Positions 60,752 through 63,788 of a stretch of DNA of 64,000 nucleotides are shown here, piece by piece. A program made the position numbers and the translations under genes. Location: positions 345,356 through 409,355 of the forward strand of contig NZ_QZMN01000001.1 in assembly GCF_003702705.1 (NCBI RefSeq). The letters are read 5' to 3'. The stretch's first letter is position 1; each line of letters begins with the position of its first letter. Below the pieces are notes generated by a model. That model did no database searches. It was not told where the DNA came from and worked only from the letters and a program-made list of their open reading frames with translations. This DNA is from Ornithinimicrobium cerasi. GTDB lineage: Bacteria > Actinomycetota > Actinomycetes > Actinomycetales > Dermatophilaceae.

Positions 60752-61024
60752 TCACTGCCCGCGGCAGAGGGGTGCGTTCGGTTCAGGGCAGAAGGTCCCA
60801 GAACTGACGGCGGCCGGCATCGCGTGGATGACCATCTCCTCGCCGCTACGGAAGACGAGCACGACCCTCTCCAGCAACCGTGCCTGGGTGTCGAAGCCGA
60901 GCCGCAGCTCGCGGTGGGGCCACTCGTCTTCCTCGAGCGGCTCGACCCACAACGACAGGTCCGCAGCCTGGACCGCGTCCTCGGGAACGACCCCGTGCTT
61001 GAGCGCGCTGCGGTGGACCTTCAC
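60752..61024 (-). CDS. Probable toxin of a CopG/RHH-paired toxin-antitoxin module
   Basis: A 90-residue protein beginning KVHRSALKHGVVPEDAVQAA, then DLSLWVEPLEEDEWPHREL, RLGFDTQARLLERVVLVF and GEEMVIHAMPA. This order (helical HGV start, then a beta sheet ending with VIHAM) is that of small BrnT-like toxins of Actinobacteria. The GTG at 61024 overlaps the antitoxin stop by 4 bases, the usual coupling. The exact toxin family is inferred from this layout. The last 15 residues are less conserved-looking. Confidence 0.65.
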   Translation of the reverse strand: MKVHRSALKHGVVPEDAVQAADLSLWVEPLEEDEWPHRELRLGFDTQARLLERVVLVFRSGEEMVIHAMPAAVSSGTFCPEPNAPLCRGQ

Positions 61025-61269
61025 GCGGCGTAGCCGGCCAGCGCACGTCGGATCGCCTCGGAGCGGGACAGGTGCTCCCGGGCGGCGTACGCGTCGAGCG
61101 CCGCGATCTCCTCGGCCGTGAGCCGCACGGCGATCACCTGCGTTGGTTCGGCCCCGCGCCCGGGACGGCCCCGGCCGCGGCGTTTGAGCTCCTCGACGTC
61201 ATAGCCAGCCTCGGCCTCGTCAGCCCACTTCTGGATCTGCTCGTCCGTCACCTGGTCGTCATCTGCCAT
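61021..61269 (-). CDS. CopG-type ribbon-helix-helix antitoxin
   Basis: An 82-residue protein. An acidic helical N-terminus (DEQIQKWADEAEAGYDVEEL) and basic RRGRGRPGRG lead to the RHH fold at the C-terminus: QVIAVRLTAEEIAALDAYA and EHLSRSEAIRRALAGYA. It is the first gene of the pair. A TATACGAT -10-like box about 10-18 bases upstream of ATG 61269, within TTTTCGTTATACGATTTT on the minus strand, suggests a nearly leaderless mRNA and an autoregulatory site. Confidence 0.75.
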   Translation of the reverse strand: MADDDQVTDEQIQKWADEAEAGYDVEELKRRGRGRPGRGAEPTQVIAVRLTAEEIAALDAYAAREHLSRSEAIRRALAGYAA

Positions 61270-61339
61270 GGCAAAATCGTATAACGAAAACCCGGCATCA
61301 GGAAGATGCCCTCCAGCACGACTGTGCAGCATGCGGAGA

Positions 61340-62019
61340 GTCGGGCGTGCATAGCCGTTCTCCACGCGGGGGGTCTGGGTAGCGCCTTGCGCTGGGCGAG
61401 TGCCGAGCCGGGTTTCGGGACGGAGGACGGCGCCCGGACCGGTAGCGTGAAGCGCATGCCAATCCAACTCGAGAACGTCGGCATCGCCGTCCGCGACCTC
61501 GAGGCGGCGATCGCCTTCTTCACCGACCTCGGGATGACGGTGCTCGGCCGCGACACGGTCCGCGGAGAGTGGACCGACACCGCGGTTGGCCTCGATGGCA
61601 ACCATGCGAATATCGCCATGCTCCAGACGCCAGACGGACACGGTCGGCTAGAGCTGTTCGAGTACATCCACCCCGCCGCGCTTGAAACGGAACCCACTCG
61701 ACCGAACGAGATCGGCATGCACCGCGTCGCCTTCTCAGTCGACGACATCGAGGAGGCCCTGCAGATCGCCGCGGCGCACGGCTGCCACCCCTTACGCGGG
61801 GTGGCGACCTACGAAGACGTCTACAAGCTGACCTATGTCCGCGGCCCCAGCGGCATCATCGTGATGCTTGCTGAGGAACTTAAGAAGGGTTAACCGCGAG
61901 AGCCCGGCCGGCCGATGGTACGTGGTCACAACCGCGAGCCCAACACCACGACGCGGCATGGTGCGGCGCTACGCGATCACAGCGGCAAAGTCGGACGAGC
62001 GTAGCCGTCCTCCACGCGG
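61340..62019 (+). repeat. 30-bp direct repeat flanking the VOC gene
   Basis: The copies at 61340-61369 and 61990-62019 match at 26 of 30 positions (shared core TAGCCGT-TCCACGCGG with one internal difference). In the right copy GTAGCCG (62001-62007) and CGGCTAC (62017-62023) form a perfect 7-bp hairpin. The repeats could be ends of a cassette or remnants of a duplication. Confidence 0.55.
61456..61893 (+). CDS. VOC (glyoxalase/bleomycin-resistance) family protein
   Basis: A 145-residue vicinal-oxygen-chelate fold protein: QLENVGIAVRDLEAAIAFFT in the first beta-alpha-beta module, LELFEYIHPAA with a metal-type glutamate, then MHRVAFSVDDIEEALQIAA and VRGPSGIIVMLAEEL. Substrate unknown. ATG 61456 is preferred to GTG 61447. 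Codon use is less GC-biased than in the core genes, and it stands alone between a toxin-antitoxin pair and an IS, so it is probably acquired. A 30-bp direct repeat flanks it (61340-61369 and 61990-62019). Confidence 0.8.
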   Translation: MPIQLENVGIAVRDLEAAIAFFTDLGMTVLGRDTVRGEWTDTAVGLDGNHANIAMLQTPDGHGRLELFEYIHPAALETEPTRPNEIGMHRVAFSVDDIEEALQIAAAHGCHPLRGVATYEDVYKLTYVRGPSGIIVMLAEELKKG

Positions 62020-62068
62020 CTACGTGTTTCATTGACGTCAGGATCAGGCCCGGCCAGGCTCGGTCCTA

Positions 62069-62151
62069 GGTGACCGGGGTTGCCGCTCTCAGTGCGGCTG
62101 CCCACGCCGTTGGTGTGAGGCTCACATTTGGCCTGCGCTGCCCCGGTCACC
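62069..62151 (+). ncRNA. Candidate IS110 bridge RNA (structured leader)
   Basis: GGTGACCGGGG (62069-62079) and CCCCGGTCACC (62141-62151) form a perfect 11-bp closing stem. Inside are GCCGC/GCGGC (62082-62086 with 62094-62098) and TGTGA/TCACA (62114-62118 with 62122-62126). A large internal loop between them has the form of a target- or donor-binding loop. A second structured part may follow up to the transposase start at 62252. The position in the 5' noncoding end of an IS110 element supports this; transcription is not shown. Confidence 0.55.
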
Positions 62152-62251
62152 GCCAGGGCCGGGAGAGGCTCAAGAGGGGTATGCCCAGCCGAACGTAGCG
62201 GTGCCCTCCCAGCTCGACACCACCTGTTGGCACGAGCAAGGGAGCAAGGGC

Positions 62252-63430
62252 ATGGATGAGCAGATCGGCCAGGTCGTGATCGGGATGGACCCGCACAAGC
62301 GCAGCGTCACGATCGAGGTGATGACCGCTGATGAGAGCATCGTCGGCGGCGGGCGGTTCGCCACCGACGCAGAGGGGTACGTCCGCCTGCTGGACTACGC
62401 CCGGTCCTGGCCGCAGCGGGTGTGGGCGGTCGAGGGCTGCGCCGGGATCGGCAAGCACGTCGCCGACCGCCTGGTCGCCGACGGTGAGTCGGTGGTCGAC
62501 GTGCCGGCGAAGATGTCGGCACGGGTGCGGGTCTTCGCCACTGGCCAGGGTCGCAAGACCGACGCCACCGACGCCCATTCCATCGCCCTGGTCGGGGTGC
62601 GGATGGCCGGGCTGCGGCCGGTCCTCGCCGACGAGCAGGCCGAGCTGCTGCGGATGTGCGTGGACCGGCGCGCCTCGCTGGGCCGCGAGCACACCCGCAA
62701 GGTCTGCCAGCTGCACAGACTCCTGCTCGAGCTCATCCCTGGCGGGGCCAAGCGGTCGCTGTCGGCGGCGCAGGCCAAGGAACTGCTGAAGACGGTCCGC
62801 CCGACCACGACGGTGGGCAAGGTCCGCAAGGCTCACGCCGCCGAGCTCGTGGCCGACCTGGCCACGATCTACGCGCGCAGCAAGGCCGCGGACAAGGAGC
62901 TGAAGGCGCTGGTGAAGACGACCGGCACCACCTTGCTCGACCTGCACGGCATCGGTCCCTCCGGTGCCGCCAGGCTGCTCGCCGAGGTCGGTGACGTCAC
63001 CCGGTTTCCCGACCGCAACCACTTCGCGTCCTGGAACGGCACCGCCCCGATCGACGCCTCCTCCGGGGACCACACCCGCCACCGGCTCTCCCGCAAGGGC
63101 AACCGAGCGATCAACCGGGTGCTGCACATCATGGCCGTGGTCCAGCTGCGCAACGCCACCGAGGGCCGGGTCTACTACGACCGGAAGAAGGCCGCCGGCA
63201 AGACCTCGATGGAAGCGATGCGCTGCCTCAAACGCCGACTGTCCGACCTGGTCTACAAGGCGCTGCTCGACGACCTCGCTGGGCACGCGGCGACGGGCCC
63301 GGGAGGGCACTCGGGTGACGACTCTGACTCCAGCGCGACCGGCTCACAACCCGCTGCCGGCTCTTCGGACAAGCCACTTCCCGGACCCGCCATGAGTAAG
63401 CCTACGACCACCCTCCCAGCAGCGTCTTGA
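62252..63430 (+). CDS. IS110-family transposase (RuvC-like DEDD recombinase with catalytic-serine domain)
   Basis: A 392-residue recombinase. The RuvC-like N-terminal domain has the acidic residues in VVIGMDPHKRSVTIEV, VWAVEGCAGIGKHVADRL and KTDATDAHSIALV. A coiled coil lies near 150-215. The C-terminal Tnp20-like domain contains LHGIGPSGAARLLAEVGD and WNGTAPIDASSGDHTRHRL with the conserved serine, and KGNRAINRVLHIMA. ATG 62252 is chosen for GAGCAAGGG just upstream; in-frame starts further up would cut into the leader RNA. The tail after residue 350 is a low-complexity Gly/Ser/Pro extension. Length is within the IS110 range, so the gene may be active. Confidence 0.93.
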   Translation: MDEQIGQVVIGMDPHKRSVTIEVMTADESIVGGGRFATDAEGYVRLLDYARSWPQRVWAVEGCAGIGKHVADRLVADGESVVDVPAKMSARVRVFATGQGRKTDATDAHSIALVGVRMAGLRPVLADEQAELLRMCVDRRASLGREHTRKVCQLHRLLLELIPGGAKRSLSAAQAKELLKTVRPTTTVGKVRKAHAAELVADLATIYARSKAADKELKALVKTTGTTLLDLHGIGPSGAARLLAEVGDVTRFPDRNHFASWNGTAPIDASSGDHTRHRLSRKGNRAINRVLHIMAVVQLRNATEGRVYYDRKKAAGKTSMEAMRCLKRRLSDLVYKALLDDLAGHAATGPGGHSGDDSDSSATGSQPAAGSSDKPLPGPAMSKPTTTLPAAS

Positions 63431-63788
63431 CACAGAGGGGTGCCAGATGAGGGCGTCCCGAAGGGTGCGCCGGGCGTCCCTCTTGGTCTAGCCTGTGCGT
63501 TGTCGCGACCTCGGTGGGTGTGACCCGTGCGGGCAGAAACGTCGACCTTCATCGAAAGGACGACGACATGTCGCGATCTTCCTCCACCTTTCCGTTTGCA
63601 GTTCCCTCTTGGGCGCCGATCCCTAGGGTTCCTTCCTGCACATCTCCGGCCTGCGTCCCCCGATTGGTGACCTGGTCGAGTTGCGGATCCGGGGCGGAGG
63701 GTGACCTCCGTGCTGAAGTTGTTCATCGGGACAGCACGGTCGACGGCGAGCAGCGGTTCACCGGGTGCGTGAAGGAGGGGTTCTCACA
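63431..63788. other. Right end of the IS110 element and unassigned spacer
   Basis: The first 60-110 bases should include the IS right end. Beyond that a frame from ATG 63568 (AAAGGA upstream) to 63897 is open, but its product is Ser/Pro/Trp-rich with no family look and overlaps a better-supported gene start at 63789. I see no convincing gene here. Confidence 0.4.

Follow-up and report, generated by a model that had tools for sequence, protein, structure and literature searches.

An IS110-group insertion sequence of Ornithinimicrobium cerasi carries, in the non-coding left end upstream of its recombinase gene, what is very probably a bridge RNA (we put the probability at about 0.93). This RNA would hold both target and donor guides, and the circular form of the element would be inserted at GCGGC|A, where the bar marks the junction. 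The element lies in a stretch of 64,000 nucleotides, called the window below, and unprefixed positions are those of the window. The initial annotation had named the region upstream of the transposase as a candidate bridge RNA; that proposal is now supported by covariation and by matches of the target and donor guides that fall in register.

In the mechanism that we propose from the sequence, the first loop of the RNA would pair with opposite strands of the insertion site, with one through its left target guide at 62086-62098 and with the other through its right target guide at 62121-62129, and the second loop would use donor guides to recognise the element ends as joined in the excised circle. 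By bringing TTGACA of the right end next to TTTCAT of the left end, excision would create a promoter, as we infer from IS621. Insertion of the circle by the recombinase would follow at GCGGC|A, which would be the cassette junction of integron-like arrays. Transcription of the RNA, its binding, catalysis and current activity of the window copy are likewise predicted.

The element and its proposed left-end RNA

The initial annotation lacked exact element ends and a target. Independent insertions now place the ends at 62021 and 63444, with the proposed RNA region between them, and the target at GCGGC|A. Among close copies (recombinase at least 83% identical), 17 left ends show a sharp boundary at TACGTG and 16 right ends one that follows GTGCC or GTGCCA, in both cases with differing flanks; this set includes three duplicate sequences, and a copy with a truncated left end, L116, is the exception to the common left boundary. 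Because the homology of close copies stops at these points while the flanks differ, the element is delimited as follows:

62021..63444, + strand: IS110-group element, 1424 bp, left junction CGGC|TACGTG, right junction GTGCC|AGATGAGG
62021..62251, + strand: left non-coding end, 231 nt, encoding the candidate bridge RNA
62252..63430, + strand: IS110 recombinase, 392 aa, PF01548 and PF02371, frame open throughout
63431..63444, + strand: right non-coding end, 14 nt, final bases GTGCC|

The leader had been described as about 200 noncoding nucleotides. It is indeed a non-coding, structured left end, but it starts at 62021 and measures 231 nt, a length that assumes ATG 62252 as the gene start (GTG 62201, upstream, is also in frame). 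The recombinase matches PF01548 (7.7e-21) and PF02371 (1.1e-21) and scores 175 bits against NF033542, for which the cut-off is 140. Its nearest solved chains are ISCro4 and IS621, and residues D13, E61, D104, D107 and S280 align with their ISCro4 counterparts, the N-terminal stretch of that alignment, over D13/E61/D104/D107, being weak alone (6.2 bits). The roles of the DEDD RuvC-like catalytic residues and of the conserved serine in IS110 recombinases are given in PMC11208158. In PMC11208160, the IS110 group is defined by a left non-coding end longer than the right one; at 231 nt against 14 nt, the element therefore belongs to the IS110 group and not to IS1111. The IS1111 group was considered and rejected, as it would need an RNA in the right end, here 14 nt long.

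Relatives were drawn from a search of 197 genomes, from 20 further stretches of those genomes and from 80 named loci, and among the latter the nearest named relatives belong to Ornithinimicrobium and Serinicoccus. The collection stood at 135 loci when ends were cut, which yielded 96 left and 119 right ends; 95 of the left ends were long enough, and removal of 7 duplicates gave 88 distinct ones.

Several copies are of interest in their own right. L116 (G004:C1:299900-302300) is a 98% identical copy whose match begins at window position 62088, two bases into the left target guide; since its left end is cut within that guide, it is without the 5' part of the RNA. L007 (G004:C1:2077368-2078807) is a full-length copy with 98% DNA identity and a recombinase match in two pieces near codon 78. 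L017 (G030:C16) shows a related IS followed by 34-bp units and by a second window-like left end at the contig edge, possibly tandem IS copies inside an array. A different IS110-family transposase gene (L002:3190-4398; 28% identity over query residues 8-339) adjoins the second copy in the same genome, and the flank of L005, which resembles that of L002, is interrupted by what appears to be another insertion sequence.

The perfect 11-bp closing stem reported initially was confirmed by exact complementarity between 62069-62079 (GGTGACCGGGG) and 62141-62151 (CCCCGGTCACC). The 83-nt hairpin that it closes (62069-62151) has a folding energy of -49.2 kcal/mol (z -4.51, with 0/200 shuffles as stable). 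The whole leader is no more stable than its shuffles (z -0.99, 33/200 as stable), and neither are the 5' region (z -1.11) and the donor hairpin (z -0.85). Because the folding energy of the full leader is uninformative, a comparison of homologues was needed, and it is covariation that carries the bridge-RNA claim; folding energy by itself would not.

We therefore rely on 70 of the 88 distinct left ends that form the structure alignment. RNAalifold, run on these without a supplied structure, returned three stem-loops, namely a 5' stem-loop, a target loop and a donor loop. Compensatory changes among homologous copies, on which the initial annotation had staked its RNA, are present on both sides of 26 of the 37 consensus pairs. 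Overall, 96.4% of cells are paired, compared with 88.9% in shuffled alignments and 39-44% when partners are slid by 1-3 columns, and the covariation score is 0.306 versus 0.168 after shuffling. The structured parts are:

62040..62067, + strand: 5' stem-loop, both-side changes in 10/10 consensus pairs, 93.0% of cells paired
62069..62151, + strand: target-binding stem-loop (helix 2), both-side changes in 8/10 consensus pairs, 96.4% of cells paired
62100..62121, + strand: inner hairpin of the target loop, both-side changes in 5/7 consensus pairs, 99.2% of cells paired
62161..62210, + strand: donor-binding stem-loop, stem (helix 5) with 97.1% of cells paired

In the closing stem, the outermost eight of the 11 pairs are intact in 64-70 of the 70 sequences; for the innermost three the alignment gives 27, 44 and 30 of 70, low counts that are due in part to 43 rows gapped at 62077. 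The two inner hairpins of the initial annotation fared differently: 62100-62121 is conserved, whereas the other (62082-62086 with 62094-62098), paired in 45-69 of 70 sequences depending on the pair, overlaps the left target guide and consists mostly of it. The architecture drawn at that stage also holds for the target hairpin, but it was missing the donor hairpin and the 5' stem-loop. From the position of the putative promoter, the RNA would extend over about 62039-62216. No Rfam family reaches its gathering score over the leader, and the window yields only tRNAs; two sub-threshold Rfam matches lie on the minus strand, in the coding region.

Predicted target guides, donor guides and core

The target guides and the flanks that they would recognise are:

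62008..62020, + strand: left target TCCTCCACGCGGC, identical to the left guide at 8/13 positions
62086..62098, + strand: left target guide CTCTCAGTGCGGC, in the sense of the left target and covering bases -13 to -1
62121..62129, + strand: right target guide CTCACATTT, pairing with +9 to +1
63445..63453, + strand: right target AGATGAGGG, 6 Watson-Crick and 2 G-U pairs of 9 with the right guide

GGC at 62130-62132 extends the right target guide into the core and handshake positions. The joint guide score of the window copy is 15.0, which is equalled or exceeded at 5 of 127,956 window positions; a single copy would therefore not prove a guide match, and it is the element set that does so.

It is possible, though improbable, that structure and guide signal are inherited and that the window copy is no longer mobile. 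Its imperfect match to its own target would fit such a history, as would decayed relatives in the same genome (the fragment L005 and the broken L003) and the split recombinase frame of its nearest full-length relative, L007, which sits in another species at another site. Against this, the recombinase frame of the window copy is open over 392 codons, its catalytic residues align with those of ISCro4 (weakly in the N-terminal stretch), and close copies with unbroken 392-residue matches occupy other sites (e.g. L009, L010, L011, L014, L036 and L117).

Of the 88 distinct left ends, 68 entered the test of the right target guide, 71 that of the left target guide, and 72 each those of the right and left donor guides. 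Some mis-parsed guides stayed in these sets, among them L067 and L130 in the right target set and, in the left donor set, several rows including L076 and L033. The patterns used for locating these parts required GG in the right target guide, GC in the right donor guide, GGC in the left target guide and TTGA in the right end, so the uniformity of these bases is partly the result of selection.

The initial annotation had pointed to the loop sequences as the place to look for matches with the insertion-site flanks, and the target guides do match these flanks in register. For the right target guide, the mean over +1 to +4 is 3.01 of 4 paired with the right flank versus 1.98 when permuted (68 elements, G-U counted as half; z 9.5, with 0/10,000 permutations as good). 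Position +1 is Watson-Crick in 64/68 elements (T-A 55, C-G 9), positions +2 and +3 vary among A-T, T-A, C-G and G-U, and +6 is paired in 22/68, G-U included. For the left target guide, identity with the left flank over -5 to -9 is 2.75 versus 1.85 (71 elements, z 7.8), and -5 is identical in 62/71 against 35.6 expected (G-G 38, T-T 24). We found no covariation signal for the left target guide over -10 to -17 in the same 71 elements (z 1.1).

The second loop holds the donor guides, and a promoter-like element lies at the right end:

62173..62179, + strand: left donor guide AGAGGGG, the same sequence as 63434-63440 in the element's right end
62193..62199, + strand: right donor guide ACGTAGC, complementary to the element start TACGT (62021-62025) and the core
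63427..63432, + strand: -35-like TTGACA of the right end, in the circle 18 nt before TTTCAT (62027-62032)

Across 72 elements in each case, covariation is seen between the left donor guide and the right end (z 7.8), and between the right donor guide and the start of the left end (z 12.3). Positions +1 to +5 of the right donor guide (62193-62197) are Watson-Crick in 67-71 of 72 elements, depending on the position, and show compensating changes; +6 to +8 are mostly unpaired, and only the first five bases of the element are paired.

It is very unlikely that these matches reflect a common ancestry of elements and host repeats instead of pairing. The elements are related, they sit at one kind of site, GCGGC|A, and permutation leaves some of the relatedness in place, but the signal of all four guides, at the positions named, stays when permutation is confined to bands of recombinase identity, with z between 6.6 and 7.8 (right target 7.5, left target 6.6, right donor 7.8, left donor 6.8). 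The signal of the two target guides also appears at offset 0 only (14 other offsets of the right guide give z -3.1 to 1.5, and 10 other offsets of the left guide z -2.9 to 1.5), and compensating pairs occur, such as T-A to C-G at +1. Less probable still is a leader that is merely a structured 5' untranslated region controlling recombinase translation, for although it directly precedes the start codon and its structure could hide the ribosome site, such a region does not predict loops that covary, in register, with each copy's flanks and element ends.

The bridge RNA that we favour would act on an unequal core. Base -1 is C in target and donor alike (64/64 elements), and base -2 is G in the target and C in the donor (62/64); the last bases are CGGC at the left junction and GCC at the right one. 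With exchange at base -1, as in IS621, the target core is therefore GC and the donor core CC in 62/64 elements, unlike IS621, which has CT in both (PMC11208160, PMC11208158). A core dinucleotide common to target and donor is thus not found here. We do not take this as excluding the IS110 group, since an equal core is a feature of IS621 and its near relatives and does not define the group; even among these, the first core base is less conserved (PMC11208158). At four places (L160, L161, L163 and L164), right-flank paralogues that carry no interruption read GCGGC|AGATGAGGG.

The G at -2 of the right target guide (62131) could pair with the C of the donor, and the C at -2 of the right donor guide (62199) with the G of the target. 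Both columns are invariant in the 70 aligned rows, in part through selection by the locating patterns. The handshake guides of IS621 are core-adjacent bases that pair with the partner DNA after exchange (PMC11208158). Here, too, bases of the right guides could form such pairs, and the handshake seems to extend into the core by one base.

As for the putative promoter, TTGA is found in 67/67 right ends, a count fixed by row selection because TTGA was in the locating pattern, and the -10 candidate TTTCAT is a weak match (4/6 by eye). TTGACA overlaps the stop codon of the recombinase and faces out of the element, which might allow an inserted copy to drive a cassette that lies downstream.

Proposed cassette arrays at the insertion site

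The left flank of the window element is a 34-bp unit, CGGCAAAGTCGGACGAGCGTAGCCGTCCTCCACG. An 18-base core pattern of this unit has 45 matches (up to 2 mismatches) in the window genome versus 3 for the reversed pattern, and the matches are often spaced 34 bp apart. Two sites precede the element:

61333..61347, + strand: weaker cassette-junction-like site GCGGAGAGTCGGGCG, which together with the 61982 site brackets a glyoxalase-type gene
61982..61997, + strand: cassette-junction site GCGGC|AAAGTCGGACG, beginning a 34-bp mini-cassette repeated elsewhere in the genome

On the minus strand, 60752-61641 holds two small overlapping frames that resemble a toxin-antitoxin pair; a ribbon-helix-helix match lies close to the end of the second, and the 90-aa one has no Pfam match.

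Pieces of the joined window flanks, mostly 34-bp units, match in 24 of the 32 genomes of the genus. We could not find a full empty site for these flanks in the 32 genomes, in which search the uninterrupted right-flank paralogues came up, nor an empty site for the joined flanks of L014 in 32 genomes; for those of L010, array units and parts of the flanks were matched, again with no full empty site.

We surveyed arrays in seven stretches from four single-contig relatives (L180-L186, e.g. L180:2534-11436). They are made of gene-sized segments and units of 28-39 bp, palindrome-like by eye, joined at GCGGC|A. Within a stretch the sites are mostly in one orientation (124 of 131 loose motif matches, those of L181 including apparently spurious ones inside genes), and gene orientations are mixed. 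In the flanks of the 88 IS110 loci, 60 sites point with the element and 4 against it; only 28 of the 88 loci have sites, and 13 of the 60 come from one locus, L010. Because the site motifs were drawn up after the sites had been seen, the evidence lies in the orientation bias and not in the count; likewise, the 97 junctions among the matches listed read GCGGC|A, as the motif itself required. A reading of the target as a REP element was dropped, the arrays being a better fit to cassettes joined mostly one way. We read the arrays as integron-like, with the IS sitting at a cassette junction in the manner of IS1111-attC elements in integrons.

Associated with the arrays is a second recombinase:

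L185:4314-5240, + strand: 309-aa tyrosine recombinase, XerC/D-like; further copies at L181:13857-14783 (- strand) and in L197-L223

This protein falls below the cut-off of each of the 10 families that it matched, including the integron-integrase model (61 bits, cut-off 265), and none of 7 genomes holds an IntI-type integrase above the cut-off of its model. It occurs (E up to 1e-60) in 22 of the 197 relatives, 16 of them of the window's genus; half of the 32 genomes of the genus are without it at this threshold, though several of these have arrays (e.g. G006). Loci of Micromonospora (L087), Terrabacter (L038), Actinomadura (L058) and Nocardioides (L051) have, close to their IS110 copies, relatives of the protein with 65-89% identity, some of them fragments.

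A conserved stretch ending in GCGGC lies, in divergent orientation, 50-51 bp from the start codon of the 309-aa recombinase in 11 of 27 loci, corresponding to 8 of 24 distinct places; in L197, for example, it reads GAACTCGAGCCGACCGACGCGCGGC|A. Across the 8 genomes in which this attI-like site was found, 7 different sequences stand after its junction. An integron trait, namely an attI-like site beside a divergent recombinase gene and before variable first cassettes, is thus present at these 8/24 places, and at the other 16 a GCGGC|A site stands at another distance or was not found. Motif matches point away from the recombinase in 49 cases and with it in 3 (44 and 3 when three duplicate loci are removed). 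Contig C55 of the same genome has an attI-like site whose first cassette is the one found to the right of the window IS; the recombinase frame there is broken. L160, one of the uninterrupted right-flank paralogues, is itself one of the attI-like sites.

Comparison with known systems

The element resembles IS621 of E. coli in having its RNA in the left end, with the order 5' stem-loop, target loop and donor loop (the loop order of the IS621 bridge RNA being that described in PMC11208160), and in having left guides in the sense of the top strand and right guides complementary to it. It differs from IS621 in its target, here a putative cassette junction whose left side is invariably CGGC. By analogy, it would also resemble the IS1111-attC elements (ISKpn4, ISPst6; seekRNA) in using an RNA-guided DEDD recombinase for insertion at cassette recombination sites; RNA-guided insertion of those elements at the recombination sites of gene cassettes is described in PMC11187229. 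IS1111-attC elements have their RNA downstream of the gene, subterminal inverted repeats and a real integron attC as target, whereas the present element has its RNA region upstream, a right end of 14 nt and a cassette site that, in our reading, is not attC-like.

The arrays are similar to integrons in that a recombinase gene stands divergent from a conserved site, which is followed by variable first cassettes, and in that the sites are mostly in one orientation. They are unlike integrons in their recombinase, which scores below the integron-integrase cut-off and is nearer to XerC/D, and in their junction. The attC core of integrons is G|TTRRRY, and the junction here is GCGGC|A. Complete integrons are very rare or absent in Actinomycetota according to PMC9024848. 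No such arrays in Actinobacteria were described in the open-access titles and abstract openings that we searched, which is weak evidence of absence.

On balance, we lean towards an undescribed integron-like system of Actinomycetota, with an XerC/D-like recombinase, an attI-like site, the junction GCGGC|A and palindrome-like mini-cassettes of 28-39 bp, together with an IS110 clade that lives in its junctions and has an unequal core, its right guides matching the recombined product at -2. The RNA and its logic are already known in kind, and the unequal core amounts to a minor variation. The arrays may prove to be the larger finding, but the path to them started from a single IS.

Naturally varied bridge RNAs whose own targets can be read from genomes offer a way to learn which guide positions matter, and a clade in which donor and target cores differ tests the handshake idea. 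The same loci hint at a platform for gene cassettes in Actinomycetota, a phylum from which complete integrons have been reported to be very rare or absent.
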